Below are positions 10,674 through 39,475 of a DNA stretch of 40,161 nt, piece by piece. Position numbers and translations under genes: made by a program. The DNA comes from Actinomycetes bacterium (GTDB lineage Bacteria > Actinomycetota > Acidimicrobiia > Acidimicrobiales > Bog-793). The notes beneath the pieces were generated by a model. It ran no database searches, was not told the DNA's origin, and was given only the letters and a program-made list of their open reading frames with translations. Each line of letters opens with the position of its first letter. Position 1 is the first letter of the stretch. The stretch covers positions 1-40,161 of the forward strand of contig JAJZBI010000031.1 of the NCBI GenBank assembly GCA_021798985.1. Direction: 5' to 3'.

Positions 10674-10746
10674 GGGGGTGTAGCTCAGCTGGTAGAGCGC
10701 CACGTTCGCAACGTGGAAGTCGGCGGTTCGAGTCCGCTCACCTCCA
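10674..10746 (+). tRNA. tRNA-Ala(CGC)
   Basis: A 73-nt cloverleaf. The 7-bp acceptor stem includes G3:U70, the alanine identity pair, and the discriminator base is A73. The D-arm is GCTC/GAGC. The anticodon stem CCACG/CGTGG closes loop TTCGCAA with anticodon CGC, and the T-arm is GGCGG/CCGCT with loop TTCGAGT. CCA is not encoded. An excisionase-like gene and a tyrosine recombinase follow directly, so the 3' half of this gene is probably the attachment site of the downstream element. Confidence 0.96.
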
Positions 10747-11091
10747 CTCTTTTGTTACAAACTCCGCAGCCCGCAAGTCCCTGAACAGGGGAGACGCAGC
10801 CGCCGCCCGCGAGTTTGTGCGCAAGAGCCCTGTGCAAGGTGTGCAGCTGCACATCCGTGCGCTCCCCCTGTGCGCCTCTGCACACCCCCTCGGTCCCGCT
10901 CGGCGCGCCACCCCCTCGCGGCGGCGCGCCGCCTGCCCTGCGGCAACCTCGATGCCGTAGTGCGGCGGCGCCACTCAGCGCCCCGCTCGCCGGGCGCGCC
11001 CGCACGGGCGCGTGCCGATTGCACGCCGCCCGGGCGGGCGGACGGGTCTTCGGGCCGGGGCGAGCGCTCCGAGAACGGAGCAGCAGGACCG
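10747..11091. promoter_or_regulatory. Putative integrase arm sites and control region
   Basis: This 345-bp gap between the tRNA and the excisionase-like gene holds no convincing ORF. It contains a perfect 14-bp palindrome, TGTGCAGCTGCACA (10840-10853), inside a cluster of TGTGC direct repeats (near 10826, 10831, 10840 and 10869) with inverted GCACA copies. Such repeats next to an integrated tRNA are typical of arm-type integrase or excisionase binding sites, or an operator. That role is inference. Confidence 0.45.
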
Positions 11092-11433
11092 ATGGCGGGC
11101 CAGAGGACCCACTACACCAAGGCCGAGGCGGCGGTCGCCAGCAAGGTGAGCGAGGCCACCATCCAGCGCGATCATCGCGAGGGGCGGCTGCCGGGCGCTT
11201 CCTACGGCGAGAACGGCGTGCTCCTCATCCCGGTCGCCGACCTGGTCGCGGCCGGGCGCCTGGGCGTCGAGGAGCTGACGAGCGGCGCTGCCGAGCTCGC
11301 CCTCGCCGGGCGTGTCGGCGAGGACCTCGCTGCGCTGCGCGCCGAGTTGGCGGCGGCGCGGGCGCGCGCCGAGGCGCTAGCCGAAGAGGTCAGCTGGCTG
11401 CGCGGCGTCGTCGCCAGCGGGGGACTGCGATGA
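11092..11433 (+). CDS. Excisionase-like HTH protein with coiled coil
   Basis: A 113-residue protein. Residues about 8-55 (YTKAEAAVASKVSEATIQRD, then a GRLPGA turn and VLLIPVADLVAAGR) read like the MerR/excisionase-type HTH_17 fold. The C-terminal half is an Ala/Leu/Arg coiled coil (about 75-105) that probably dimerises the protein. Its TGA overlaps the ATG of the recombinase (ATGA), so the two are translationally coupled. In known tRNA-integrated elements a small protein in this place acts as a recombination directionality factor or regulator; that role is inferred. The ATG at 11092 is chosen over upstream in-frame starts because the longer version adds only Arg/Pro-rich, non-protein-like sequence. 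Confidence 0.7.
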   Translation: MAGQRTHYTKAEAAVASKVSEATIQRDHREGRLPGASYGENGVLLIPVADLVAAGRLGVEELTSGAAELALAGRVGEDLAALRAELAAARARAEALAEEVSWLRGVVASGGLR

Positions 11434-13574
11434 GCGGCGGGCGGCCGCTCACCGGCCGGGTCTTCCGGAGGGGCAAGCAGTGGTACGGGAGCCTTGTCCG
11501 CCGGAGCGACACCGGGCGTACCACGGTCGGCTTCCCCACGAAGGAGGAGGCGCAGGCGTGGGTCGACGAGCAGCTGCCGCGCGTCCGGGCCGGTCTCGAC
11601 GCCATCGCGCCGCCGGCCTCCCGGTCTCGGCGCGCGCGGCCGGCGCACCAGCCCCCGGCGCGGCTGCATGCGCCGGCCCCTGAGCTGCCTGACCCGAAGG
11701 CGATTGCCCACGCGTGGCACCAGGAGCGCTACGAGATGCTCGAGGTGGGAAACCCGGACACCTCTGACGGGGTGCTGCGAGACCTCGAGCTCCATGTCAT
11801 CCCCCTGCTCGCAGCAGTCGTCGGCAGCGAGCCCGCGGCCGGGCGGCTGATCGTCGTCGACTGGGTGCGCTGCCAGAGCGGCCGTGAACCGGCGTCCGCG
11901 TTGAGCCCGTGGGCGGCGGCCGAGCCTGGCTATGCGAAGGCGACGGTGCGCGGATGGCTCCGGAGCTTCCGTGCGATCCTCGCCTACTACCGCACCCTCG
12001 GTTACGACGTCCCGGACTGCTCGCGGGGCGTCCAGTCGATGGAGCGCTTCGGCGGCGAGAAGCGCCGGCGGACTTTCGTGCCGCTCGAGCAGGCGGTCGC
12101 GCTCGCCGCGCGCCTTCACATCATCCACCAGAGCGTGCTCTGGATCATCCGCGGCGCCGGCCTGCGGATCTCCGAGGCCTTCGGGCTGCTGGTCGGAAGT
12201 CTCATCCTCGACGCGGAGCGCCATGGCTTCCTCCTCGTCGACCAGCTCGGCGGCCGCTTCCAGGTCCGCGACGCTGACGGAAACCGACACGTCGTGAGCT
12301 CGGTGCAGCGCGGCAAGTCAGCGAGCGCCTACCGCTTAGTGCCGCTCGCGGACTCCCTCACGGAGCTGCTCCTCACGGTCATTGAGGTCTTCCACACCGA
12401 CGACGAAGGAAACATCGACATGGGAGCACGCCTTATCCCGGCGATCCGCAAGGACGATGGCGGCGAGCAGGCATTCCGCCAAGCGCTCACCCGTGCTGCA
12501 CGCGATCTGCAGCTGGTGTCGGATGCCCCGGACGACTACTGCGATGTGACGCCGCACGCGATGCGAAAGGGCTACAACACAGACCTCGCGTGGGACCACG
12601 ACGTGCCGGCGCTCGTGCGCCTGCGCACGGTTGGCCACAAGGCCGGAAGCGACGTCAACAGTCTCGTCTACACGCTCGATCGCCGGCTGACGGCCGACCT
12701 GCGACCGGCTGCGGAGTCCGTCGAGCGTCAGCTGCGCGCCGTCACGGCTTCCCTGCGTATCCCGACCGCGCTGCGGCCCTCCTACGCACGGGACCGCGCC
12801 GAGCAGGCGCGGGCCTACGACGCCCGGCTGCTCGAGCTCGGCTGGCAGCAGGATCCGCACGCCGGGCTCATCGGTGTCTCCGAGGCCGCGAAGGAGCTCG
12901 TCCTCGCCGAGAGCACGACGCGGCGCCTGCTCGCGCGCGGCGACATCCCCGCAGTAAAGACGCCCGAGGGCTGGAAGGCGCGTCCCGAGGACGTCGCGTC
13001 CTACCGCGACACGCGCCTGCGCTCACGCGTCACCCTCGGCGATGTCGCCGCGCAGTGTGCCGTGGGCTACGACCGCGCCTACAAGGTCGCGGCGCGTCTC
13101 GGGCTCGCGCTCGACAAGGGCCCCGACGGGGCGCTGCTCCTCTCGGTCGCCGACGTCGCCGCGGTGAGGGGAGAGTGCGAGCGGCTCGCCGCGCTCGCCG
13201 AGCGGGCGCTTCCCATCGGCGCAACGGCGAACCTCCTCGGCACGCGCCACTACGGCAGCGTTCATCGCTGGGTCGCTGAGGGGCGGCTCGCCTACGACGT
13301 GGAGCGCGACGGAGCTGGACACCGCTGGGTCACCAAGCAGTCGCTCCGGGCAGAACTCTCCCGGCGCGGCAAGGGCGGGCACCCGGCGCGCGCCGAGGTG
13401 ATGGATGCCTTCGGCCTGGACAAGGCGATGCTGAGCGCGTTGCTCAAGCGCGGTCTCCTCACTCCGGTCCGTGAAAACCGCATCAACGCCCGTTCACTGG
13501 TCGCGTGGGTTGCGGGATATCGTCCGGATCTCTTCGAGACACCGTTGTATAAGCGCCTGGCAGTCGAGGTGTGA
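11430..13574 (+). CDS. Tyrosine recombinase (integrase) with four C-terminal HTH-like modules
   Basis: A 714-residue phage-type integrase that presumably recombines at the adjacent tRNA-Ala. The N-terminus has an AP2-like arm-binding stretch (GRVFRRGKQWYGSLVRRSDT, then TVGFPTKEEAQAWVDEQL). A core-binding helical domain and a catalytic domain follow, with visible R246 (GLRISEAF), H376-R379 (HAMR), H403 (GHKAG) and nucleophile candidate Y414 (SLVYTL). Most integrases would end soon after the tyrosine, but this one continues about 290 residues. That tail contains four successive segments of 50-55 residues resembling MerR/excisionase HTHs (about 478-530, 531-585, 590-645, 650-705). Typical motifs are VSEAAKELVLAESTTRRLLARG and GATANLLGTRHYGSVHRWVAEG. 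The start is the ATG overlapping the upstream stop; the longer in-frame start at 10815 would cover the excisionase gene and is rejected. Confidence 0.9.
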   Translation: MSGGRPLTGRVFRRGKQWYGSLVRRSDTGRTTVGFPTKEEAQAWVDEQLPRVRAGLDAIAPPASRSRRARPAHQPPARLHAPAPELPDPKAIAHAWHQERYEMLEVGNPDTSDGVLRDLELHVIPLLAAVVGSEPAAGRLIVVDWVRCQSGREPASALSPWAAAEPGYAKATVRGWLRSFRAILAYYRTLGYDVPDCSRGVQSMERFGGEKRRRTFVPLEQAVALAARLHIIHQSVLWIIRGAGLRISEAFGLLVGSLILDAERHGFLLVDQLGGRFQVRDADGNRHVVSSVQRGKSASAYRLVPLADSLTELLLTVIEVFHTDDEGNIDMGARLIPAIRKDDGGEQAFRQALTRAARDLQLVSDAPDDYCDVTPHAMRKGYNTDLAWDHDVPALVRLRTVGHKAGSDVNSLVYTLDRRLTADLRPAAESVERQLRAVTASLRIPTALRPSYARDRAEQARAYDARLLELGWQQDPHAGLIGVSEAAKELVLAESTTRRLLARGDIPAVKTPEGWKARPEDVASYRDTRLRSRVTLGDVAAQCAVGYDRAYKVAARLGLALDKGPDGALLLSVADVAAVRGECERLAALAERALPIGATANLLGTRHYGSVHRWVAEGRLAYDVERDGAGHRWVTKQSLRAELSRRGKGGHPARAEVMDAFGLDKAMLSALLKRGLLTPVRENRINARSLVAWVAGYRPDLFETPLYKRLAVEV

Positions 13575-15279: not shown

Positions 15280-15348
15280 GTGAGGTTCGGCGGAACGGCC
15301 TCGGCGCCTGCTATCTTCGCCATCAGCGTCGCCAATGTTGCGGCAAAG

Positions 15349-18300
15349 ATGAATACCCAGTCGGCCCACAACGACATCACCGTTTACCTCGGGAGTGACT
15401 TCGAGCACCTCCATGAGGAGCGGTTCCTCAATCGCCTGCGTAACGACCTCAGGGGTCGCGGCGCGCGGGCGCTGATCATCGCGAACTTCAACGTCCGCGG
15501 TCGCAGTGGGCAGCGGCAGATCGATTTCCTCATCTGCACGAACTTCCGGCTCGTCCACGTCGAGCTCAAGACGCTGAACCCGAGCGCCCCCGTCCGAGGT
15601 CGACTGAACGGTCCATGGATCCAGGACCTGGGCGGCGACCACTCCCACGAGATCACGCCGAATCCGTACACCCAGACCGTCCATGGGTCGTTCGCGATCA
15701 GTGACATGGTCACCAAGATGGCCGGCCTTGGGCAGGTCCCGCCGCCCCGGCGTCGCTTCTACCACGACATCGACAAAGTCGTCTGCATTGACCCCGACGT
15801 CCCGGCGAGTTCCGAGCTCGAGCGACACCAGTACGTCGACGTCATCGGGTACCAGCAGCTGCTCGATCGGTTGTCGATCAAGGGGCCACAGCCACACTGG
15901 ACAGACGCTCACTGGGACGCGTTCCTCCGCGCGCTGGGGGTATACCCGGCGGAGCACGACACGCCGAGCGAACGTCGCCGGCGGCGCGGCACCGAGGTCC
16001 TCGGTGACTATCGCCGCCGATTCATCGACCAGATGGGCGAGGGATTGCGTGACCTCGTCGATGTCGGATTCGCCGGAGCCGCCGCCGGCGCGGACGATGC
16101 GACGTTCGAGGCGGTACTCGGTCAGCTCGAGGACGGACGCTCGATCGGGCTCGTTGGCGCCTCCGGGTGGGGAAAGAGCCACGTCGCACGCCACGCCGCG
16201 GTCAGGGCGTCTGAAGGGGGCGCGCTGGTCTTCTGGATCCGATGCGGTGAGTACTCGACCGGCAGGTTCTCGAACCTGCTCGCCCGCTCGGCGGCGCCAT
16301 TCAGCACGGACACGGCGGGCGAGCTGGCGGGTCATGCCGGCCTCGTCGGCGCGCGGCGGTTGCTCGTCCTCGACGGCTTCAACGAATGTCCGCCGACGAT
16401 GCGGGCCGATCTTGCCGGCGAAGTTGGGAGCTTCCTCCTCCGGTTCCCGAGCTCAGTCCTTGTCACGTCCCAGATCGATCCACCATCGCCACTCGTGGAC
16501 GCGACGTTCCGCGCGAAGCTGCCCGATGCGCGGCAGCGCGAGGCGATGCTGCTCGCCCACGGGGCCCGGAACCCGAAGCGCGTCAGCGATGCGTTTCGAT
16601 CTGCCTTCGAGCTGGCGGTCGCCGCTTCGTGCGAAGCGGAGCTTGCTCCCGACGCAACGCGCGCCGACCTCTTCGACGCCTACCTGCGGGAGCTCACGCC
16701 CTCCGAGGTCGTCCGCGCCGGGCTGCGTGCGCTTGCCCTCGCGACGATCGACCAGCTACGGACGTCCCTTCCCATTGGTGTCGCTTCTTCGGTCCTTGGC
16801 GGTGCCGCCGGTCTCGCCATGGCGCCGGATCAGGTTGATGCCGTCATGGCTTCCCAGATGCTCGTCGTCACTCAGGGGCGGGTGCGGTTCACCCACGAGC
16901 TTCACGCACGCTTTCTCGCCGCGGAAGCCCTCGTTCGACTTTCTTCGACCGGCGTCGCGCTCGCTGCCGAGCTTGCAAAGCCGGGGCGGGCCGAGCTTGC
17001 GTGGTTCGCGATTTGCCTCGAGGGCGACCCCGAGCGTCGGGCCGCCGCTCTCACAACGCTCGGCGACGACAAGCTGTGGTCGTCCGCGGCTCGCGGCGAG
17101 ATGGGCTACTCGGCCGCCGAGACCGCCCGAGCAGCGATTCGGGGAGTGCTCGCCGACGCCGCTTTTGCCGTGGGCACCGACGAGCTGACGCTCGAGGAGG
17201 CCGACGGGCCATTCTTTCCGACGTGGCGGCGCGGCCCCGCTTGGAACGCCAACGAAGGCGCGCTGCTCGGCGTGGCCGGAGAGCTGCTCGGCGAAGGCTT
17301 GTTCATCGAGGACGTCGCCAATCTCCTCGACCGTACCGACGAGCGACTGCAGCGCGAAGCGGATGAGCTCCGCTCCGCGGGCTCGACGGCACCGATCACC
17401 GCGGTCGTCTCTTCGCTCGTCGGATCTCGGACCGATGCGACGCCCCTCGGAGCGAACTTGGCGCTCACCGCTGCCCGGATGTGCGGCTTCCGCAATCGCG
17501 CTCCTGGCGCCGCCGCCCGGTTGGTAGCAGGCGCGGGGCCGCGCTCGTGGTCCCGACTTCTTGTGGCGTGCGAGATTGTCGGGCCGGACGACGTGGCTCG
17601 CGAACCCGGGCTGCTCGCTTCCTTGGTGGCTGCATCCTGGAACGCGAGCGGCTACCACCTTCGACTCGCCGCGATGATGGCGGTCCACCGTTGTGGTCGA
17701 TCGCTCGACGAAGAGCGCCGTGCCGAGATGGCCGAGCTGCTTGGGATGCTCAGCACCGACCACCCCTTCCTCCAGAGCGCGATCGTCGAGGCGTACGCGG
17801 CACTCGACCGCCTCGGGGTGACTCTGCCCACGGTCGAACAGCTCGCGGAGATGATCCGTACCGAAGTACTCGCCATGGATGACGGACCTGAGGCATGGCG
17901 CCTCGCGGCGGGCATCTGCGCACAGCAATGGGAGCCTGACGACATCGTCGGTCCCTACTACGAGGCCGTCCGGTCGCTTCCCGAGGAAGATCGTTTCCGG
18001 CTCTATGTCCGGGCGGCACAGTTCGATGACGGCTACAACCGCGGTTGGGTGCTCGACCAGCTCTGTCACCTCGCGCCGACGGGGATCGCCGAGGACGACG
18101 ACGTGCTCCGGCGGGTCTTCGTCGGAGCGACGCGTCGTCCTCCCAACCCGCACGGGCTCATCGACGACAACGTCGACGCGCACGTCTTTTCTGCCCGTGG
18201 CCTCGGTCGCCTCGGCGTCGAGTTCCCCGGGGACCCCGACGCCGATGACGAAACCCGTGCATGGCACCTCGTCGACTCGTTGATTGTGTCGCTCGAACGC

Positions 18301-18684
18301 GGTGCGGACGTCCCGGCGGAGTGCTGGGTCGCGATCCGAGAAGAACTGCCGTGGCTCGTTTCCGAGGTCCTGTTCATCCTCCGATTCGCCGGCAGGAGGT
18401 CGAGCACGGACTGTCAGCAGGACTCGTGCGTGCTCAGCCGGTTGATGGCAGCCTTTGGGATTGAGCTGCGCCGGCTCTTCGAATGGGAGGTCACGCACCT
18501 CGTGGAGATGCCGGAGCCGCGGCGCTCACCGATCGGCGACACGCATCAAGGATTCGTGATCCGGTCGCTCGGGAGCTTGGGAGACGGGGCGAGCGTCGAA
18601 GCGATCCGCCCGTTCCTCTCCGACCCCAAACTCGGCCGTGACGCGGTTCTGGCCATGCGGTCGCTGCAGGAAGACCGATTGTAG
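15349..18684 (+). CDS. NERD nuclease-STAND NTPase, putative anti-phage protein
   Basis: An approximately 1,111-residue multidomain protein. Residues about 12-125 form a NERD (nuclease-related) domain with the pattern RQIDFLIC...RLVHVELKT, where the Asp and the E-x-K match a PD-(D/E)xK-like site. A P-loop NTPase of STAND/NACHT type follows: Walker A GASGWGKS (about 270-277) and Walker B RLLVLDGFNE (about 336-345). About 600 residues of helical, HEAT/TPR-like sequence complete it. The layout of effector, NTPase switch and repeat sensor is that of Avs-like bacterial defence proteins, so phage sensing followed by nucleic-acid cleavage is a reasonable inference. The ATG at 15349 starts just before the NERD domain; a GTG at 15280 is an alternative. 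No frameshift is seen. The nearest neighbour is the IS110 end. Confidence 0.8.
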   Translation: MNTQSAHNDITVYLGSDFEHLHEERFLNRLRNDLRGRGARALIIANFNVRGRSGQRQIDFLICTNFRLVHVELKTLNPSAPVRGRLNGPWIQDLGGDHSHEITPNPYTQTVHGSFAISDMVTKMAGLGQVPPPRRRFYHDIDKVVCIDPDVPASSELERHQYVDVIGYQQLLDRLSIKGPQPHWTDAHWDAFLRALGVYPAEHDTPSERRRRRGTEVLGDYRRRFIDQMGEGLRDLVDVGFAGAAAGADDATFEAVLGQLEDGRSIGLVGASGWGKSHVARHAAVRASEGGALVFWIRCGEYSTGRFSNLLARSAAPFSTDTAGELAGHAGLVGARRLLVLDGFNECPPTMRADLAGEVGSFLLRFPSSVLVTSQIDPPSPLVDATFRAKLPDARQREAMLLAHGARNPKRVSDAFRSAFELAVAASCEAELAPDATRADLFDAYLRELTPSEVVRAGLRALALATIDQLRTSLPIGVASSVLGGAAGLAMAPDQVDAVMASQMLVVTQGRVRFTHELHARFLAAEALVRLSSTGVALAAELAKPGRAELAWFAICLEGDPERRAAALTTLGDDKLWSSAARGEMGYSAAETARAAIRGVLADAAFAVGTDELTLEEADGPFFPTWRRGPAWNANEGALLGVAGELLGEGLFIEDVANLLDRTDERLQREADELRSAGSTAPITAVVSSLVGSRTDATPLGANLALTAARMCGFRNRAPGAAARLVAGAGPRSWSRLLVACEIVGPDDVAREPGLLASLVAASWNASGYHLRLAAMMAVHRCGRSLDEERRAEMAELLGMLSTDHPFLQSAIVEAYAALDRLGVTLPTVEQLAEMIRTEVLAMDDGPEAWRLAAGICAQQWEPDDIVGPYYEAVRSLPEEDRFRLYVRAAQFDDGYNRGWVLDQLCHLAPTGIAEDDDVLRRVFVGATRRPPNPHGLIDDNVDAHVFSARGLGRLGVEFPGDPDADDETRAWHLVDSLIVSLERGADVPAECWVAIREELPWLVSEVLFILRFAGRRSSTDCQQDSCVLSRLMAAFGIELRRLFEWEVTHLVEMPEPRRSPIGDTHQGFVIRSLGSLGDGASVEAIRPFLSDPKLGRDAVLAMRSLQEDRL

Positions 18685-27330: not shown

Positions 27331-29100
27331 TCATCTCTGTCCGAACGGTGACCGCCGAGGGCGGGCAGAGGGGTTCAAATAGCCGAACTGACGTAGCCGC
27401 TGGTACTCCACCGCGTACTGCTCAACCAGCTTGTCAAGCCGATCCTTGTCACCACCGAATAGACCGGCCGCCAACCATGGGTGTTCTCCGCCGGCTTCAC
27501 CCTCTTGTTCGAGCTCAGTCATAGCTCTGCTCTTCTCGCTGGACATTCCGTCAGCAGGCCAGGGACGACCCGGTGTGGCGAACGTAAATGGGTCTTCTGG
27601 AGCGGACGCATCGCGAGCAACGACATAGAGAAAGAGATCGAACCGCTCGTAAGCGCGCTCGACCAAGTCCTCCGTCAACAACAGCTGACGCAGCAACACC
27701 GGCACCAAGAGTTCGTGGAGATGTTCATCTGCGACGTCCGCGCCGCCACCGGTGCCGAAACCCGAGAGAGCGCGGTGAATGTTGAGCTGGGACGCGGCGG
27801 GCGCAGGTCTACCTGTCGCCAGGTCCCGGATCCGACGCCGCAAGAGGTGGTCGAGATCGACGAGTCGGCCAGCCGCCATCATGGCGACGCCCGCCCCGTA
27901 AAGCAGAGACGCAGCGGGGTAGTACCGAACGTCGATGAACCCTGAAAGCCCGCTCTGAGGTTGCTGGTCTGCGAGCGCAAGAAGCGTCGGAACCCAGAAC
28001 CCATCCGTCTTTCGATCACCCCAATGCGCGAGAGTGCAGACCAGTGCGAGCGACACCTCAACAGCAGCGTCGATGCGTTCGACGATGGCCTCGAGCACGG
28101 GCCGGTCCCCCTGGTTCGGCCAGTCCCCAACCTTCTCGCCGAACGCCCGAAGTTCACGTGCCACGAGGTCGTGGAGGCGAATCTGCGAGCCGTCGGCAAG
28201 CGCTCGCTTGGCCGTGGCTACCGCAATGTCAGGAGAGCCCGGCGGAGCAATATCGAGATCGCGCAGCGCCACGATCGTCTCCTCGAGGCGCGTGAGAAAC
28301 GCGTCTCCGGTCGCCGCGACGACGCGAGCGTCGCGGTTGGTGATGAGACGTGTCATCTCTTCGCTCAACCCGAACGGTTCCACGATGTATGTCCCAAACC
28401 GTCGGGTTGTGCACCGCTCGATTGCCGCTCGAAGACCCTTGTCCCAGGTCGCGGACCAGCCAGAGATCACCAGGCCATACTCGTCGAAGACCTGGTCGAG
28501 GAGACGATCCACGGCCGGCTCGTATTTGTCGAGTTCGGCTCCAGTGTTCAGGAAGCCAGGATCAAGGTAGTCGCCGTTCACCTTGACGATGCAGGCTCGT
28601 TGGAGATGAAGAGGGCGTGCACCAGCGACCGCTTCTGGCGTCGCCAGCACCGTGGGCGCGACTCCCACTTCCTCCAGGGCCCGTTCGAGCTGGCGGTCGA
28701 AGTTCGTCGTTATGACGATCCGGATAAGCCCGTCGCTGACCAGCCTGGCGACAGCTCGATGTGCGGCCGACGGTTCCACCCGAACAGCACCGTCGTGATC
28801 CTCCGGCTCGAAGTAGCGCCGGAGTAGGGCGACGCGCTCCTCCGGGGTGTTGGTCAGATCCTCAAGGACCGAGCTGTATCCGATGGGACGCTTGACCTGT
28901 TCCCGGTACCAGGCGACGGGATCCTCGCCGTGATAGCCCTCATGGTTCGCAATCAGCCGCACCAGGTCGCACAGCACGTCCCAGCCAGTGGGAATCCCCT
29001 AAGAGATACCGGAATCCAGCAGTAGGACATACCCTCCCGGACTCGCTCGAAGCGCCATGGCGAGGGTGAGTACCGGATCGACGTCCACGCCTTTCATCAT
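27331..29100 (-). pseudogene. SIR2-family defence protein, broken by amber codon
   Basis: A SIR2-like protein of about 590 codons. From the ATG pair at 29097-29100 the frame reads MKGVDVDPVLTLAMALRASP, GGYVLLLDSGIS, then TAG (28999-29001), then GIPTGWDVLCDLVRLIA and on to 27331. In family members this point is the NAD-binding loop GxGxS followed by a few residues and GIPTGW. Here the first Gly is Asp and the loop is about two residues short, with a stop. Downstream SIR2 pieces are intact (VITTNFDRQLERAL, VISGWSATWD), as is a helical C-terminal domain of about 300 residues. Known relatives deplete NAD+ during phage infection. Translation from the downstream GTG at 28977 would lack the NAD loop, so activity is unlikely. 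Confidence 0.78.
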
Positions 29101-29232
29101 GCCTCGGCAAGCCCTCTGCGCGCTGTGAACTGGGGCGTTGTCATTCGCCGCGCGAATCTTTCCACCGGCATACGCGGTGCCCAGTCTCATCGCGGAAGCG
29201 GTTTGTGCGAACGGCTGATTGCACGTAGGCCG

Positions 29233-32200
29233 ATGCCCTGCACCGTCACCGCCATGACCATGAGCATGGACCGACCCCAGGCACCCGACACCGACACCGA
29301 GGGCACCGATCCCGGTCATCAATCCTCGGGTCGATCGACGGACAGCAGCTCCGCGCAGCTTGGGGAACTCTTCGCGGGCTTCACCCACATCAGCCGCGCC
29401 AGGCGATGCTCCGCCGACAGGGAGACCCGCGGCAAGTCTCTCGCGGCGCGCGCCGTCCCTAGCGCGGGTGTCAAGCTTGACCTCCTCATCGTACTGCGCC
29501 AGAGCATCAAGAAAGCGCTCGCCGAGCTGGAGGCCGGCTTCCTTCAGGTGACCGGACCGCTAGCTGCGCGCTACTCGGCGGTCGCCTGGATGATCGAGCA
29601 GCGCGCCTACGAGGTGTTGACGCTGAAGGATGGGACGGACCGCGCGGAAGCTGTAGCTCGCACGGGTGCCGTCCCCCTACGCCGAGGCGAAGGGCCGAAC
29701 GCCGACTCCTGGTTGATCGTCCACGACGATGTCGGGCTGATTCTCGCTTTGGAAAGCGCTGGCAAGACCGACCTGAAAGAGACTTCCTCCGCCGGGTGGC
29801 GGGCGCTGAACGAGTTCACGATCGGACTCGCAGATGCCGTCGCTGCCTACCGGCCGAGCATCGTCGTCACCGGCCGCCCAGATCGCATCATCCGGCTCTG
29901 GGAACACTCCAAGGTGCTCTGTCGCGCGCTCGCGATGGTGGGGACCGAGCTGCGCTGGCTCGATCCCGAGCATCCGGTTCTCTACATGGCGTCGAAGGAG
30001 GACGAGCAGCTCTTCGACCGCATCGCACAGGACTGCGAGCGAGATTACTGGCGCACGATTGCAAAGATGAACTCAGGACAGCTGCAGAAGGCTGCGAATG
30101 GCACATATCCCCTCGGGGGGACGACACTTCCGATCTTCTACCGACAGGTTCCGAAGAGCGCAGCGCATCCTGCGGGTGTTGCCTACTGCGATGAGGCGAC
30201 GCCGTTCCTCCTGCTCGCCTGCAAGATGGCAAGTGAGGGACGAGACGACAAGGCGATTGCTGCAGCGCTTATCAAGGCGCGCTGCCCGGCATCTTCCCAG
30301 CACCGCCGGCGTGCCGAGAACGCTGGTGAGACGGCGGAGGTCATCGGAAACGGAAAAGTCGCCGCTGCCGCCGCGGTCGTTGCAACCTGGTGGCGATTCG
30401 TGCCTGTGCTCGCCACGGGGCAGTACACGTATTCGCAGCGCATCCCGTTCCCGGTGCGCTATCTCCAGCTCATCGACTACGGAACCGCGACCTACGAGAT
30501 TCGGAACCGCGAGCGCAAGCCCCTGCCGAGCGACAATGAGCGGCGCCCGATCGAAGAGCGCGAGGATCCCTACTTCTTCACCGACCTGGCCTTCGAGCCG
30601 ATCACGCGAGCGATCGGCGGTGAAACCGTCACAGGCTGGACAGCAGAGGAGGAGGCGATGATCCGGCTGTGCTGGAAGCACAAGCGCCCGGATGCGAATG
30701 TGGGCGTCTCGCCGGCACCGCGGTCCAGCACATCCCGGCCCTTCGAAGGCACCCGTTGGACCGAGGGGGGAGACATCTGCACACTCCGCGGGCGGGGTTC
30801 TACTCGTACGACCAATCGCTACCTCGTCTGGGCGGAGGCTGCCAACGGTGGAGAGACCACCACCACCTGGGGCCGCCGCGGTCGCATCGTGACCGCGGCG
30901 AATGCTACGGCGCTCCACGGTCTCATCGTCGAGCTAGCGGTGCATTACCTTGCACACGAGGGGATCGACGTCTCCGACGTCGTCGCTCCCGACCTCTCCG
31001 ACGGCGGCGATTCCGCGAGCTTGGAGTCCGAGGCGCTTGTGGCCGAGTTGCGTCGGAAGATCCAGGATGCCGAGGACGAGGTCTTCGGCGTCGATGAGGA
31101 GCTGCCATCGCTACGCCGACGCCTCGGACGCGTGAATGGTGAAGAGAAACGACTGCTCGAGAAGCGCATCAGCCGCCTGAAGCACAAGCAGGAGGCTGCC
31201 GAAGAGCGCCTGCCTGTACTCCGGCAGCAACTGGCGGTTGCCCTGAGCTCTCTCGGGGGCGCCGATCTCCGGCCCGAGCTCGCCGCCGGCAGGCTGATCA
31301 GCGTGCTCGGCTATCTCGCCGCGGAGGGGGACACCGACGCGTCCGTCGAGATCCCAGCCGAGGCCCTCCCCTACATCGCACAGTTCTTCCCCGAGCTCCG
31401 CCTTCACTCGGTCGCCGGCGGCGCGCGCGTCGGCGTGGAGGTGAACTTCGTCGTCTCGACGACCTTCGGTCGCCGGGCGACAACGCTCTCGGGGGAACTT
31501 CCCGCCGCTGCCTACCGCGTCGGCGATGTGTCCGTGAGCGCCGCTCGCCAGCAGGCGCTCGCCACTCGCTTCCTCGCCGGCGAGGAGGTCTCCTCGCTCG
31601 CCACCTGGGCCGGGATCCGAGTCGATCAGGCGGCTCGTCAGATCCACGAGCAGCTGCGCGGGCTCGTGCCCGGCAAGGGCCCCCGGGCGGCGGTCGGTGA
31701 CGCTCCGGTGAAGGCATTGCGCAAGGTCTTCGCGGCGCTGAACTCGGCGGGAGGTCGGCACGATTGCATGAAGCCACCGAGGGGCTTGTCCAAGGGCTAC
31801 GTCGACACCGTCATCAAGAGCTACGTCACCAGGCGCCCCACCAGCGCAGGGACGCTCGTAGATCCCGGATGGGTGATGGCGTGGGCGGGCGATACACATG
31901 AACTCGCGTGGGCCGCTGTCGGCTACGTCGTTGCCACCGCACGCAAGGCCCCGTCCCGCGGTGTTCCCGCCAATCAGCTACTCACCGCGCTCGGCATCAC
32001 GAGTCGGCAACTCCTCCCGCTTGTGCACGGCTCTCGTCGCTCCCCGAGCACGCAGGCATACAAGCCGGTGCTCGAGATCGTGCCGTGGCGCGACGGGCGC
32101 GGTCAGTGGCATACGGACTGGAGCTCGCACCCGGCACCGGCGCAGATGCGGGTCCGGGCGCGCTGGTGCGAGGTCTGCGAGGCACACTCGGCCACTCACG

Positions 32201-32985
32201 TCCTGCGCGTGCTGGAGGTCCCCGAGTCGGTGATCTGCCTGCGATGCATGACCAGCCCTGGCAACCCCGACTGCGTCTATCCGCCGGAATACCGGTACTT
32301 CTACTCAGGCCCGCGCGGGCGCGGCGAGGGAGGCACGGGAACAGTGCGTGTCGCGTCTCCCCTCAACGCCGCGGCCTACAAGGCGCGCTTTCAGGGCGTC
32401 GGCGGCAAGGCCGGCCGCGAGCGCATCGAGATCCCCGAGGAGGAACTGCGCCAGCTATACCTCGTCGAAGGGCTCACGCAGATGCAGGTCGCCGAGCGCT
32501 TCCGCACCTCGAAGCCCACCGTGCTCCGCTTCCTCCGTCACTACGGTATTTCACCCAGGAAGGGCGGCATCGGGCCCGGCACGACAGTTTGCCGCACCAC
32601 CTTCACCCCGGTTCTCTCCGAGGCGCAGTGCCGGGACCTCTACGTCGACCACGGCCTCTCGCTCCGAGAAATCGCTGATCGCCACCACTTGTCGCAGAGC
32701 CGGGTCCGGCGGCACATGCTCCACTACGGCATCACACTCCGCGCGCGTGGCCGCGGCGGCCTGCGACCCTCCTACGCCCAGCGCGAGATCTCGACGCTCG
32801 ACCGGGATGCCCTCGAGCGGCTCTACTGTGTCGAGGGCCGTGGGAGCAAGGAGGTAGCCCGCATCCTCGGCTGCTCTGCGTCCAAGGTCACCTCCGACTT
32901 GAGGTGGCACGGGCTGCCGGTACGCACACGCGGACGGCACGCGCAACAGCTGCCCGACGCTGCCAGATCGACATCAGACGGCTGA
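29233..32985 (+). CDS. Very large divergent serine-recombinase-like protein with tandem HTHs
   Basis: About 1,250 residues. The N-terminal part resembles a resolvase core: LLIVLRQSIKKAL with the R-x-S pair (R89, S91), then VVTGRPDRIIRLWEHSKVLC in the place of the usual DRLxR helix. A recombinase-type linker follows (GTYPLGGTTLPIFY, then a segment ending KAIAAALIKARCP). Further on come a TGQYTYSQRIPFP block, a long coiled coil (about 606-680, as in the zinc domain of large serine integrases), and a zinc-ribbon-like pair WCEVC...CLRC (about 979-1005). Three successive HTH repeats close the protein (about 1069-1236: LTQMQVAERFRTSKPTVLRF, LSLREIADRHHLSQSRVRRH, SKEVARILGCSASKVTSDL). The identification rests on motif order and is tentative, and the size is far above the family norm. 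The start among several ATGs is uncertain. Confidence 0.6.
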   Translation: MPCTVTAMTMSMDRPQAPDTDTEGTDPGHQSSGRSTDSSSAQLGELFAGFTHISRARRCSADRETRGKSLAARAVPSAGVKLDLLIVLRQSIKKALAELEAGFLQVTGPLAARYSAVAWMIEQRAYEVLTLKDGTDRAEAVARTGAVPLRRGEGPNADSWLIVHDDVGLILALESAGKTDLKETSSAGWRALNEFTIGLADAVAAYRPSIVVTGRPDRIIRLWEHSKVLCRALAMVGTELRWLDPEHPVLYMASKEDEQLFDRIAQDCERDYWRTIAKMNSGQLQKAANGTYPLGGTTLPIFYRQVPKSAAHPAGVAYCDEATPFLLLACKMASEGRDDKAIAAALIKARCPASSQHRRRAENAGETAEVIGNGKVAAAAAVVATWWRFVPVLATGQYTYSQRIPFPVRYLQLIDYGTATYEIRNRERKPLPSDNERRPIEEREDPYFFTDLAFEPITRAIGGETVTGWTAEEEAMIRLCWKHKRPDANVGVSPAPRSSTSRPFEGTRWTEGGDICTLRGRGSTRTTNRYLVWAEAANGGETTTTWGRRGRIVTAANATALHGLIVELAVHYLAHEGIDVSDVVAPDLSDGGDSASLESEALVAELRRKIQDAEDEVFGVDEELPSLRRRLGRVNGEEKRLLEKRISRLKHKQEAAEERLPVLRQQLAVALSSLGGADLRPELAAGRLISVLGYLAAEGDTDASVEIPAEALPYIAQFFPELRLHSVAGGARVGVEVNFVVSTTFGRRATTLSGELPAAAYRVGDVSVSAARQQALATRFLAGEEVSSLATWAGIRVDQAARQIHEQLRGLVPGKGPRAAVGDAPVKALRKVFAALNSAGGRHDCMKPPRGLSKGYVDTVIKSYVTRRPTSAGTLVDPGWVMAWAGDTHELAWAAVGYVVATARKAPSRGVPANQLLTALGITSRQLLPLVHGSRRSPSTQAYKPVLEIVPWRDGRGQWHTDWSSHPAPAQMRVRARWCEVCEAHSATHVLRVLEVPESVICLRCMTSPGNPDCVYPPEYRYFYSGPRGRGEGGTGTVRVASPLNAAAYKARFQGVGGKAGRERIEIPEEELRQLYLVEGLTQMQVAERFRTSKPTVLRFLRHYGISPRKGGIGPGTTVCRTTFTPVLSEAQCRDLYVDHGLSLREIADRHHLSQSRVRRHMLHYGITLRARGRGGLRPSYAQREISTLDRDALERLYCVEGRGSKEVARILGCSASKVTSDLRWHGLPVRTRGRHAQQLPDAARSTSDG

Positions 32986-33053: not shown

Positions 33054-34183
33054 GGCTGTGTTGCAGAGACGACGAGGGCCGTAGGGGGCAGCGCCGAGCA
33101 GTCAGTGCATGAGAACAACAGCCCGCCTCGCTCGCGCCCCCTACGGCGCCTCGAGCACGACTGTCCCGCAGATCCCCGCCCCGGCACGACGCCACGGACC
33201 ACCGCGACGAGCGCCCGGTGAGCGCCGCGACTGGAGAGCGACCGACCGGCGCCTTCGCGCCCGAGGCGATCTCCGCCTCCTCGTCGATCCCGAGTGGCTG
33301 GCGAGCCTCGTCGGCGACGGGCGGGCTTCGACGCGCGGCCGCCCCTATGACCCGGTACTGATCGAGCACTGCTGCGCGCGCGGGGCAGCGACGGGACTGG
33401 CCCTCCGCCAGGTGTCCGGGCTGTGCGCCATGCTGCTCGGCCTCGCCGGCGCTGCGCAGGTCGCCGTGCCGGACCACTCGAGCATCTGCCGGCGCCGGCG
33501 AGAGATCGGTTTCCGGCCACCACCCAGGCGAGCTGGTCCGATCACCATCGCCATCGACGCCACCGGGGTCACCCTTTCCACCCCCGGGCCCTGGACCAAG
33601 GACAAGTACGGCGACAAGCGACGCTCGCGCTTTGTGAAGCTGCACGCGGCGATCGACGTGGCCCCGGGCACCTTCGTCGCAGCCGTCGTCACCGACGCCG
33701 CCGGCGAAGGCACCGGGGACGTCTCGGTCGGACCTGAGCTCATCGACGAGGCGGCAGCATCGGGGCCCCTCGCCGCTGTCCTCGCGGATCGCGCCTATGA
33801 AGCACGCGAGTGCTACGAGGCCGCGCGCCGAGCCGGTGGGGTCCTGCTCAAGCCGCCGAAGGACAACGCGAGACGAGGTCTTCACCCCGACCGTGACCGC
33901 CACCTCGCCCAGATCGGCCGCCTCGGCTGCCGGTGTGGCGAGAACGCGTCGGCTAGGGCGACCGGTCCCACGTCGAGGGTGCCTTCTCGGCCCTGAAGCG
34001 CACCACCGGGCACCGGAGCCGTGCCCGCAGCCTCGAGGGGGCTGCCGCCGAGATCACCGCTCGGGTCAGCCTCTACAACACCTGGCTCGAACAAGGGGCC
34101 TGAGCCGCCGCGCGCCGGCGGCGGGAAGGGCGCGTCCTCGGATCCGGGCCAGTCGACGGCCGGGGCGTCTCTGCAACACAGCC
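33054..34183 (+). mobile_element. IS903-like (IS5 family) insertion sequence
   Basis: A 1,130-bp element with perfect 18-bp terminal inverted repeats GGCTGTGTTGCAGAGACG (33054-33071 and its complement 34166-34183). It is flanked by the 9-bp direct repeat CTGGGGCTT (33045-33053 and 34184-34192). An 18-bp IR beginning GGCTNTGTTG and a 9-bp duplication are hallmarks of the IS903 group. The perfect ends imply a fairly recent insertion, yet its transposase gene is broken. Confidence 0.9.
33109..34103 (+). pseudogene. Transposase of the IS903-like element, frameshifted
   Basis: An IS5-family DDE transposase. The first part runs in one frame to about 33,925: RPYDPVLIEHCCARG, then IAIDATGVTLSTPGPWTKDK with the first Asp, then AVLADRAYEARECYEAA with the second. 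The continuation lies in another frame: VWRERVG, TAG (33954-33956), then GDRSHVEGAFSALKRTTGHR with the Glu, ending SLYNTWLEQGA, stop at 34101-34103. So there is one frameshift near 33,920-33,935 and one amber codon where a Tyr is expected. The product cannot be functional without transposase in trans. Confidence 0.82.
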
Positions 34184-34355: not shown

Positions 34356-34730
34356 TCAGCTGCGACTATGTCGCTCGCCGTTGAGCTCGAGGAGCCGCCG
34401 CTCCACCTCGCGCTGGGATTCGGGCTGAAGCGTCCCGCGGGCGCCGAAGCGCTCGGTCGGATGGAGCCCGAGGGTGATATCGAGGTCCTCCCAGCCATAG
34501 GCCGTGGCGACGGCCGCGTCGAGCTGCTGGTGGCAGGTGCGCAGCTCGGTGACGTCGCCCGCGTGCTCGTCGGGGGACGTCACGAGGTTGTAGATGTCCG
34601 TCATGCCCACGGCCCGCTCCAGCATCATTGTGGAGCGGTGTGCCTCGAGGGTGCGGGCGGCGACGGCGACGGCTGCGGACGGACCGGGTCGCGGGAAGGT
34701 CTCGAAGCAGCGCTCCTGGACCACGCGAGC
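34356..34730 (-). pseudogene. C-terminal remnant of an Eco57I/type II-style DNA methyltransferase
   Basis: The reading frame ending at 34356 encodes RVVQERCFETFPRPGPSAAV, a helical stretch with HRSTMMLERAVGMTDIYNLV, then HQQLDAAVATAYGWEDLDIT, and closes RREV-like REVERRLLELNGERHS. This order (FETFPxP, hR..MM...G.T..YN, LD.AV..AYGW.DL, R.E...RLL.LN..R) is what I know from the C-terminus of large restriction-modification methyltransferases of the Eco57I/type IIG kind. The catalytic methyltransferase part is absent. It is fused in frame to an unrelated membrane-protein fragment upstream, probably by deletion. Confidence 0.6.
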
Positions 34731-35177
34731 TCGGGAAGTCCAACCAACGGGATGAGTTCTGCCACGTGAAAGACCAGAGATCCCCCCGGCCGCAATGCCG
34801 TGAGCCGACGAGGAATACCACTCGTTAGCACTGGCGTTTGGCCAGATGAACGCTCGCAAGCCGACGGCCGGTCCGTGGCCGATGTTGGATACGGCAACGC
34901 CGGCGAAGATGAGATCGTCATCCACGGCATGAACGTGGATGACTGGACGAACGGCGAGCTCCCGGTCAAGGCGCTGCTCCATGGCGAGCGCACGCGTTGC
35001 CTCCGCCTCCTCGCGGGCCGCCTGGACTTGTTCTCTCGCCAGTTCGATCGATGCCCTTGCGTCCTTGATAGCGGCCTCGCCGGCTTCAGCGGCGCGGCGC
35101 GTGAACCAGGCCATAACTGCGGTGACTACGGCCAAAGCAAGGGTACAGAGCCCGACAAGCCAGTCTCCGGCGGTCAT
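34731..35177 (-). pseudogene. N-terminal fragment of a membrane-anchored protein
   Basis: This opens with MTAGDWLVGLCTLALAVVTA, a single membrane helix, then a coiled coil (residues about 28-70). It continues as a beta-rich stretch RPVIHVHAVDDDLIFAGVAV and SNIGHGPAVGLRAFIW, typical of small bacterial inner-membrane proteins with a C-terminal soluble domain. After about 34,820 another frame continues more naturally (LTALRPGGSLVFHVAEL...), suggesting a frameshift. The fragment then joins the methyltransferase remnant. The two together form a 273-codon chimeric ORF, which may still be translated. Confidence 0.5.
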
Positions 35178-35725
35178 GCCACTTGCTGCAATCACCTCAC
35201 AAGCGTACCTGTACGTACACTGGTCAGGAAGGAGCCAGGTTCCGGTATCTACACTCGGCGACGCTGACTCGTCGACCTTGCGATGTCTCGGGAGACCGTC
35301 GCGGTGCTCGGTGCGCCTCCGGCTGGCGTCGCACCGCGGGGCGGCTACGCGCTTGTCGGTAGTGCCAAGGGCAGGCGCAGCCGACGCGCTCATTGGGCGT
35401 GGGCGGCCGGCTGAGTGGGAGTAGCAGACAGGGCGGAGCGAAGCTGTCGTTCTGAGCGCGAGGGCACCTTTCGGAGCGCCTGTGACCGGGTATTCGGAAT
35501 GACTGTTCAGGCGAGGGTCGGCGGGCGTCCCCGGCAGCGCCGAGCAACCGGCAGATCGAACAGAGATCGCAAAATCGTCGATCGGAGCCTGGTCAGACCC
35601 GGCATGGCCGGATGCCACACGAGATCTGACACACCACGGGCGGCGGTGAATGCACGCCCGCTCGCATCCCGCACAGTGTGCGACCGACCCGCTCCAGATC
35701 GAGCGGGCCGCACAAGGAGGACGAT
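35178..35725. other. Divergent spacer with no gene seen
   Basis: The 548 bp between the chimeric minus-strand ORF and the plus-strand pair hold no ORF I would defend. A TGTACGTACA palindrome lies near 35,210, close to the minus-strand gene. The promoter of the pair at 35726 must be here but cannot be named with confidence. Confidence 0.4.
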
Positions 35726-38228: not shown

Positions 38229-38903
38229 ATGAAGAAGCTGGCAGCCGTCGGTGGCGCTGAGCTGGATACACTTCGGATAGTGCACACGATCCAGATCCAC
38301 TCCGTTGCCGGCCCGTTTGCGCGCCAGCCGGGTGCGGGCCGCCGTGCGGCGACGCTCCTCGCGCGCGCCGAGGTGATGGGCTTCTCCACCGGTGAGCTCG
38401 CCGGCGGGGTGCTGAGCGTCGCCGTCGTCCACGAAACGGTCCGCGCGCTCGCGGCAGCAGGCGTGGCGAGTCGGGCGGCGGTTGTCTTTGATGACGAGCA
38501 CCCCGACGAGGCGGTCGCACTCGCACTCGAAGGCACCGAGCACAGCCCGATGCCCCGCGGTGAGTGGCCCGCGCTGATCGAGATGCTCGGCGAGGACCTC
38601 CTCGCCCATCTCCTCGGCATCAGCGCGTCCAGCCTGCGCCGCTACGCCACGGGCACCCGGCCGACCCCCGACGCCGTCGCCGCGCGGCTGCACCTGCTCG
38701 CTCTCGTGGTGGTCGACCTCGCCGGGGCCTACAACGCCTACGGGATCCGGCGCTGGTTCACCCGGCCACGCCACGCGCTCGGGGGGCGCGCACCGCTCGA
38801 GCTGCTGGAGGGTGAGTGGGATCCCGACGGCGAAGCCGCCGCGTCGCTGCGCCGTCTCGCCGGCGAGCTGTCGGGGGAGCTGAGTGCCTCGGCGGCGGGC
38901 TGA
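38229..38903 (+). CDS. Xre/MbcA/ParS-type antitoxin of a RES-Xre module
   Basis: A 224-residue protein. The C-terminal half carries the DUF2384-type toxin-binding region: LLAHLLGISASSLRRYATGT (HTH), then LHLLALVVVDLAGAYNAYGI, RRWFTRPRHALGGRAPLELL and EGEWDPDG. These match MbcA/Xre antitoxins. The N-terminal half is longer than in the simplest members. Such antitoxins neutralise the RES toxin and repress their own operon. The stop lies two bases before the toxin ATG. The ATG start is the first in frame after a weak AT-rich spacer, and a later start is possible. Confidence 0.85.
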   Translation: MKKLAAVGGAELDTLRIVHTIQIHSVAGPFARQPGAGRRAATLLARAEVMGFSTGELAGGVLSVAVVHETVRALAAAGVASRAAVVFDDEHPDEAVALALEGTEHSPMPRGEWPALIEMLGEDLLAHLLGISASSLRRYATGTRPTPDAVAARLHLLALVVVDLAGAYNAYGIRRWFTRPRHALGGRAPLELLEGEWDPDGEAAASLRRLAGELSGELSASAAG

Positions 38904-38905
38904 GG

Positions 38906-39475
38906 ATGGCGCTCTGGTTCCGCCACGGGGATGCCCGCTTCCCCTTCTTGTGGGAGTCCGGCCCGCAGCCACCGGGACGGTGGCACGACGCGGCGCACGC
39001 GCCGGCCACCTACCTCGCCGACAGCCCCGACACGGCCTGGGCAGAGTTCCTGCGCCACGAGGAGATCACCGACCCCGCGGATCTCCGGGGCATCGCGCGA
39101 CGGATGTGGGCAGTCGAGGTCCCCGATGCGGTGGTCGAGGCCGCGCCGCAGGCGACCCTCGCCGCCGAGACGCTGAGCGGCGACCGTGCGAGCTACCCGG
39201 CGTGCCAGCGCCATGCGGCAGAGCTCCGCCACGCGGGGGCGTCGGCGCTGCGCGCGCCGTCGGCCGCGCTGGCCCCGGCGCGCGGCGGTGGTCAGAAGGT
39301 CGACGGCGGCCTCATCGAGGCCTCGGCACGCGACGGCGCGACGCTCGTGCTCTTCGGGGGACACTGGCCCGACGTGCGGGCGTGGGCGGCAGTCGACGTG
39401 GGAGCGCCGACGCTTCGCCAGCTGCAGCAGGTGCAGCACTTCGCGGGTGCCATGGCATCCCCGGGCCCTGCGTGA
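38906..39475 (+). CDS. RES-domain toxin (NAD+-degrading)
   Basis: A 189-residue RES protein: ALWFRHGDARFPFLWESGPQ and PPGRWHDA at the start, TYLADSPDTAWAEFLRHEEI with the Tyr and Glu of the active site, and a later Ser-containing segment RASYPACQRHAAELRHAGAS. Known RES toxins (for example MbcT) break down NAD+ by phosphorolysis or hydrolysis and stop growth; their partner is an Xre/MbcA antitoxin, which lies directly upstream. The ATG at 38906 has GAGG-like bases before it and gives the usual short N-terminus; longer in-frame starts overlap the antitoxin. It appears intact. Confidence 0.87.
   Translation: MALWFRHGDARFPFLWESGPQPPGRWHDAAHAPATYLADSPDTAWAEFLRHEEITDPADLRGIARRMWAVEVPDAVVEAAPQATLAAETLSGDRASYPACQRHAAELRHAGASALRAPSAALAPARGGGQKVDGGLIEASARDGATLVLFGGHWPDVRAWAAVDVGAPTLRQLQQVQHFAGAMASPGPA

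Follow-up and report, generated by a model that had tools for sequence, protein, structure and literature searches.

The gene at positions 29233–32985 of the analysed DNA (the window, which is the whole of contig C56, 40,161 nucleotides) was described in a first-pass annotation as coding for a giant divergent serine recombinase with catalytic residues R89 and S91, perhaps part of a new transposition or integration system. The locus raises the question of whether so large a protein is a serine recombinase at all and, if it is, how it relates to the known large serine recombinases (LSRs) and to the island that carries it. With a probability of about 0.72, we regard it, from sequence comparison, as an LSR of a diverged, uncharacterised clade that is invisible to the PF07508 model, and as the putative integrase or transposase of a mobile segment, acting by the serine mechanism.

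Reading frame and domain layout

The frame 29125–32985 (+) was open through 1,286 codons, an event with a chance probability of ~1e-8 as computed from the stop-codon frequency of the window, and the GC content of the gene by codon position (0.68/0.53/0.80) was gene-like. The start was placed at the ATG at 29233, giving a protein of 1,250 residues; the GTG and TTG starts upstream were less plausible, and the extra N-terminus is found in no homologue. The large size noted earlier was confirmed, with an intact frame; the two complete homologues, L114 and L120, have 826 and 831 residues, respectively. The features of the gene were located as follows:

29233–32985 (+): probable divergent large serine recombinase, 1,250 residues; open frame, family homology over ~800 columns
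29233–29478 (+): N-terminal extension, residues 1–82, Ser/Thr/Asp-rich, not in homologues; family alignment
29479–29535 (+): first strand and R-x-S motif LLIVLRQS (R89, S91); R-[EQ]-S invariant in 5/5 proteins
29536–29808 (+): residues ~102–192, clade-specific replacement or insert from the R-x-S helix to the third strand; family alignment
29809–29895 (+): NEF...YRP...PDRIIR motif (R218, R221); invariant in 5/5, with homologues aligning to PF00239 and a PDB DNA invertase
29980–30105 (+): helix E region and start of the recombinase domain (..ERDYW...GQLQKAANGTYPLGG); hhalign and hmmsearch to family and LSR profiles
30106–30700 (+): diverged recombinase domain with insertions relative to homologues; family alignment and family-to-LSR hhalign
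30701–31010 (+): predicted zinc-ribbon-domain equivalent without zinc-binding cysteines; alignment of family to ordinary LSRs, cysteine positions
31015–31260 (+): coiled-coil-like stretch, inferred from sequence and its place in the family alignment
32167–32247 (+): four-cysteine knuckle CxxC...CxxC (C979, C982, C1002, C1005); conserved in L114, L120 and L067
32425–32940 (+): three tandem HTH units, window protein only; Pfam, repeat alignment and BLAST to stand-alone HTH arrays

Within the first motif, LRQS occupied residues 88–91, where the first-pass annotation had placed R89 and S91; S91 is the putative nucleophile and R89 the putative first catalytic arginine. The segment that follows (residues ~102–192) comprised a hairpin and the invariant pair S175-A176, and ordinary LSR profiles failed to align there. 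Between the R-x-S and R218/R221 regions, the clade's own segment measures roughly 70–90 residues. Three further elements had been read from the sequence beforehand, and each was found again. The coiled coil lies at residues ~595–675, as placed by alignment to the homologues and not by a dedicated coiled-coil predictor; the Cys-pair domain corresponds to C979/C982 and C1002/C1005; and the three HTH repeats lie at residues ~1065–1115, 1124–1177 and 1185–1236 (Pfam: HTH_23, 2.8e-9; Sigma70_r4, 1e-7). Additions specific to the window protein are the 82-residue N-terminus, the three HTHs and a number of insertions, located close to the first helix and within the recombinase domain.

Homologues and the link to ordinary large serine recombinases

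The core of the window protein matched nothing in Pfam, NCBIfam, PHROGs or the PDB, the Pfam resolvase-type catalytic domain (PF00239) included; the C-terminal HTH units alone were recognised. Hmmsearch with ten ordinary LSRs scored the protein no better than shuffled sequences. The corresponding hhalign comparison gave a probability of 8%, yet in the right register, with DRIIR over DRFSR and AANGTYPLGG over AARGEWTAGG. Two single-sequence AlphaFold runs gave no confident structure (pLDDT 39 and 35).

Three other genomes of the phylum yielded four homologues. When 396 of its genomes were searched by BLAST, one real relative emerged, by way of the cysteine domain, in genome G635 (L063/L067). 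The start of L067 is missing from its contig and was found on another, L075, and L074 represents a second copy. Profiles built from L067/L075 and L074 then recovered L114 in genome G099, of the same order as the window genome (E = 4e-94), and L120 in genome G223, of the same class (E = 3e-185). Two further candidates, L065 and L066, were rejected, as their weak BLAST matches fell on glycosyltransferase-like and other genes. Directly downstream of the L067 recombinase gene, we also observed a 413-residue frame (L067 4603–5844, −) that resembles the C-terminal half of such an LSR (coiled coil, CxCG...CGxC) and has weak BLAST similarity to the family.

Three homologues, L114, L074 and L067, were run against Pfam. 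The Resolvase PF00239 cut-off was passed by L114 (E = 2e-10) and L074 (3e-6), in the second half of the domain, and L067, whose contig lacks the first half, reached E = 0.09. Neither PF07508 (recombinase domain), in the family members put to Pfam, nor any NCBIfam model, in the four homologues, gave a match. All four matched the phage serine integrases of phrog_95 (up to 5.6e-19) and likewise the DNA invertases of phrog_125, and L114 matched solved DNA invertases in the PDB.

The window protein was left out of the family profile used to link it to these homologues. Hmmsearch with this profile found collinear blocks in the window protein (resolvase half, middle and cysteine knuckle) with a total E of 3e-11 to 1e-10, and none of 300 shuffles and no other open reading frame of the window fell below E = 0.3. 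With hhalign, the match reached 97.4% (E = 1.3e-11) over 799 columns. Identity between the window protein and the homologues was 18–22%, compared to 29–46% among the homologues. Aligned in turn to the ten ordinary LSRs, the family gave 98.5% (E = 3.6e-15) over 334 columns, which span the DRxxR motif, helix E, the recombinase domain and the zinc-domain equivalent, and run into the coiled coil. The degenerate resolvase-like core proposed earlier, undetectable from the single sequence, was thus recovered through the homologues.

Over the first 312 residues, 18 columns were invariant in the five proteins, including R89, S91, R218 and R221. Conservation of R89 and S91 among homologues had been set beforehand as the refutation test of the serine-recombinase assignment, and both residues were present in all five proteins at 18–22% identity. 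Together with the family homology, this invariance supports a giant divergent serine recombinase with catalytic R89/S91. We take R89, S91, R218 and R221 to be the counterparts of the catalytic R8, S10, R68 and R71 of resolvase. The assignment of R218/R221 rests on the alignment to invertases through L114, and R89/S91 are assigned by their invariance and by their position behind the hydrophobic strand that opens the domain. The family has a second invariant serine, S175.

Some features of ordinary LSRs fail in the family, and our claim of LSR membership therefore rests on homology and is made for a variant. No profile aligned the R-x-S motif and the insert, which make up the first half of the catalytic domain, and their homology to ordinary resolvases is one of position only. 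After the recombinase domain, none of the four zinc-ribbon cysteines was found at the corresponding columns of the family. Nevertheless, hhalign to ordinary LSRs aligned the passage from helix E into the recombinase domain, though PF07508 was unmatched, and the coiled coil of the LSR zinc domain had its aligned stretch in the family. As judged from these alignments, the clade is marked by a catalytic domain whose first half was apparently rebuilt, by a zinc domain devoid of cysteines and, in the C-terminal part, by a predicted new zinc knuckle. Of the five proteins, that of the window diverges most; it sits on a long branch and has indels around helix E, and because of both, loss of activity is possible.

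Proposed mechanism and comparison with known systems

The domain plan of LSRs and their shared mechanism have been described (PMC3783163), as has the serine attack in the LSR reaction (PMC9943657). By analogy, the window protein would most probably cut and rejoin DNA in a site-specific manner, through the serine chemistry usual for these enzymes. S91 would attack the phosphodiester to give a 5′-phosphoserine link, with the phosphate held by R89, R218 and R221, and the subunits would rotate inside a tetramer joined through helix E. The attachment site would be bound by the recombinase domain, the cysteine-less zinc-domain equivalent and the C-terminal four-cysteine knuckle, and the three added HTH units would supply additional sequence-specific contacts or form another binding site. 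The protein would act as the integrase or transposase of a mobile segment that now lies inside a composite island. What the data show is homology, domain order, conservation of the four catalytic positions and an intact frame; its activity, the role of the HTH tail and the identity of the moved element are points that we infer, as is the mechanism, by analogy.

The clade resembles the phage large serine integrases (phrog_95; PhiC31, Bxb1 and Listeria type) in the order of catalytic domain, helix E, recombinase domain, zinc-domain equivalent and coiled coil, and in the R, S, R and R catalytic positions. It differs from them in the first half of the catalytic domain, which is a longer segment with a hairpin, in a recombinase domain missed by PF07508, in the lost zinc-domain cysteines, and in an extra C-terminal region with the four-cysteine knuckle, at total lengths of 826–1,250 residues. 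In the published plan, by comparison, the zinc ribbon has four cysteines and the coiled coil is embedded in that ribbon (PMC3783163). With the small serine recombinases (Gin/Hin invertases, Tn3/gamma-delta resolvase), the clade shares the TRLVR/DRIIR segment and helix E, which align to DNA invertase structures, whereas these enzymes lack the large C-terminal region, and the binding domains of the clade are unrelated to theirs save for generic HTHs. Five ordinary LSRs are encoded in the window's own genome (G000 contigs C51, C25, C7, C1 and C64), and all of them score against PF07508.

Relatives were present in at least three genomes besides the window's own among ~900 distinct genomes searched in samples; these counts are lower bounds, only few candidates per genome having been scored in each search. 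Scans of IMG/VR and of phage or plasmid collections gave no relatives beyond generic resolvase matches. We found no description of the clade in the literature searched, a scope outside which most subscription journals lie. A large LSR survey started from PF07508 and kept tool candidates of 400–650 residues (PMC10083194). The clade marks a blind spot of that survey, since the model and the size filter both miss it. More speculatively, and in our view doubtfully, it may form a separate serine-recombinase clade missed by PF07508-based surveys, with a rebuilt first half of its catalytic domain and with site recognition shifted to the zinc knuckle and to exchangeable tandem-HTH modules, which would let a swap of HTH arrays alter specificity. 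Large serine recombinases are sought as DNA-insertion tools. If active, the clade would be a test of how much remodelling the catalytic domain of a serine recombinase tolerates, of the need for the canonical zinc ribbon, and of the ability of a fused HTH array to set target choice.

Alternative readings and the surrounding island

The HTH tail resembles stand-alone tandem-HTH proteins of 284–668 residues in the same and related genomes, at 25–41% identity, with E values as low as 6e-13 when four proteins were compared; one such relative lies in the window's own genome (G000:C34). The tail was therefore likely gained by fusion or module exchange. Matches in plasmids, haloviruses and related genomes concerned the tail only and were rejected as relatives of the recombinase. 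Stand-alone many-HTH genes were seen in four genomes of the order (L070 6871–7725, L115 562–2259, L116 1661–3550 and L117 3158–5164), and that of L117 adjoins a tyrosine integrase. Their products share the ~50-residue HTH unit with the tail of the window protein but, unlike it, consist of HTH units only, without a recombinase.

The kinship of the tail with such proteins, one of them in the same genome, also bears on the alternative that survives best, although we consider it unlikely: a recombinase-derived DNA-binding protein that kept the fold and lost recombination, its HTH tail making it an island regulator or a nucleoid-type binder. The long branch, the core indels and the extra 82-residue N-terminus would fit such a history. 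However, the four catalytic positions are invariant at ~20% identity, which would be unexpected after loss of catalysis.

Host-type genes fill the first 10.6 kb of the window, and the far end of the island lies outside the contig. Transposases of IS110, rve-type and IS5-like affiliation occur in this defence-gene island. Such an accumulation of transposase genes, an IS5-like insertion 70 bp downstream, and the rarity and divergence of the recombinase gene might indicate a decaying integrase relic in a scrap-yard island full of insertion sequences. We find this improbable, as the 1,250-codon frame is intact with a coding GC pattern, and the catalytic residues are retained.

A tRNA-Ala gene (CGC, 10674–10747) is followed by an HTH gene (10870–11433) and by a tyrosine integrase gene (11430–13574, +), and the latter two overlap by ATGA. 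The integrase, named from its R...HxMR...GHK...Y pattern rather than by a Pfam match, has ~715 residues and several HTH-like stretches (HTH_17) in its C-terminal part. The three genes (10674–13574) are likely the integration module and left end of the island. Because the tRNA-Ala gene is followed by an HTH gene that overlaps the integrase, entry of the island through this enzyme is most likely. As for its other end, the window's own genome held no convincing second copy of the tRNA-Ala end as attR (best other match 77% over 71 bases). In the window, no repeats or att site were found near the ends of the recombinase gene, and an empty-site search for the homologue loci of G099 and G223 found no informative relative.

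The HTH-tailed tyrosine integrase that the first-pass annotation had paired with the recombinase does exist, but it lies 16 kb away and nothing links the two functionally. The evidence does not reach as far as a new transposition or integration system: the protein is better seen as a variant of known LSRs, no att or empty site was shown, and the tyrosine integrase accounts better for the island. That the two recombinases form two parts of one new transposition system is very improbable. Tyrosine integrases do also occur within ~2 kb of L114 (5631–6848, 405 residues) and L120 (8641–9777, 378 residues, adjoining tRNA genes), the two loci covered by this comparison, the L074 and L067 contigs being too short. 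Besides the 16 kb separation in the window, though, the integrases differ in layout and length (405, 378 and ~715 residues), and several recombinases commonly gather in tRNA-borne islands; their proximity may reflect one habitat rather than one machine.

Finally, chance resemblance or an unrelated fold, suggested by the undetectable single sequence and by ClpP proteases sharing QDCERDYW (the sole matches of a genome scan with the window core), is scarcely credible and is refuted unless the family alignment is wrong, as the ClpP match covers 36–41 residues selected by the search pattern and the family homology is collinear over 800 columns.

Other genes of the island were also noted. A SIR2-domain gene (27331–28977), divergent from the recombinase gene, matched the PADLOC candidate PDC-S65 (3.7e-132), and a protein of 1,134 residues with NERD and a NACHT-like ATPase (15280–18684) is a candidate defence protein absent from PADLOC. 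An HNH-like gene is also present. The IS5-like element downstream of the recombinase gene (33054–34183, 1,130 bp) has inverted ends of 18 bp, GGCTGTGTTGCAGAGACG, and its target duplication, CTGGGGCTT, measures 9 bp. In the short protein encoded at 34359–35618 (−), the C-terminal 120 residues (295–418) are similar (to 3e-31) to the terminal parts of models for DrmMI, DrmD and type IIG restriction-modification, although the rest looks unrelated to them; we read this as a shared module out of context. A RES-domain gene (38816–39475) overlaps the 3′ part of the gene upstream (38229–38903), and the two resemble a RES-Xre toxin-antitoxin pair.
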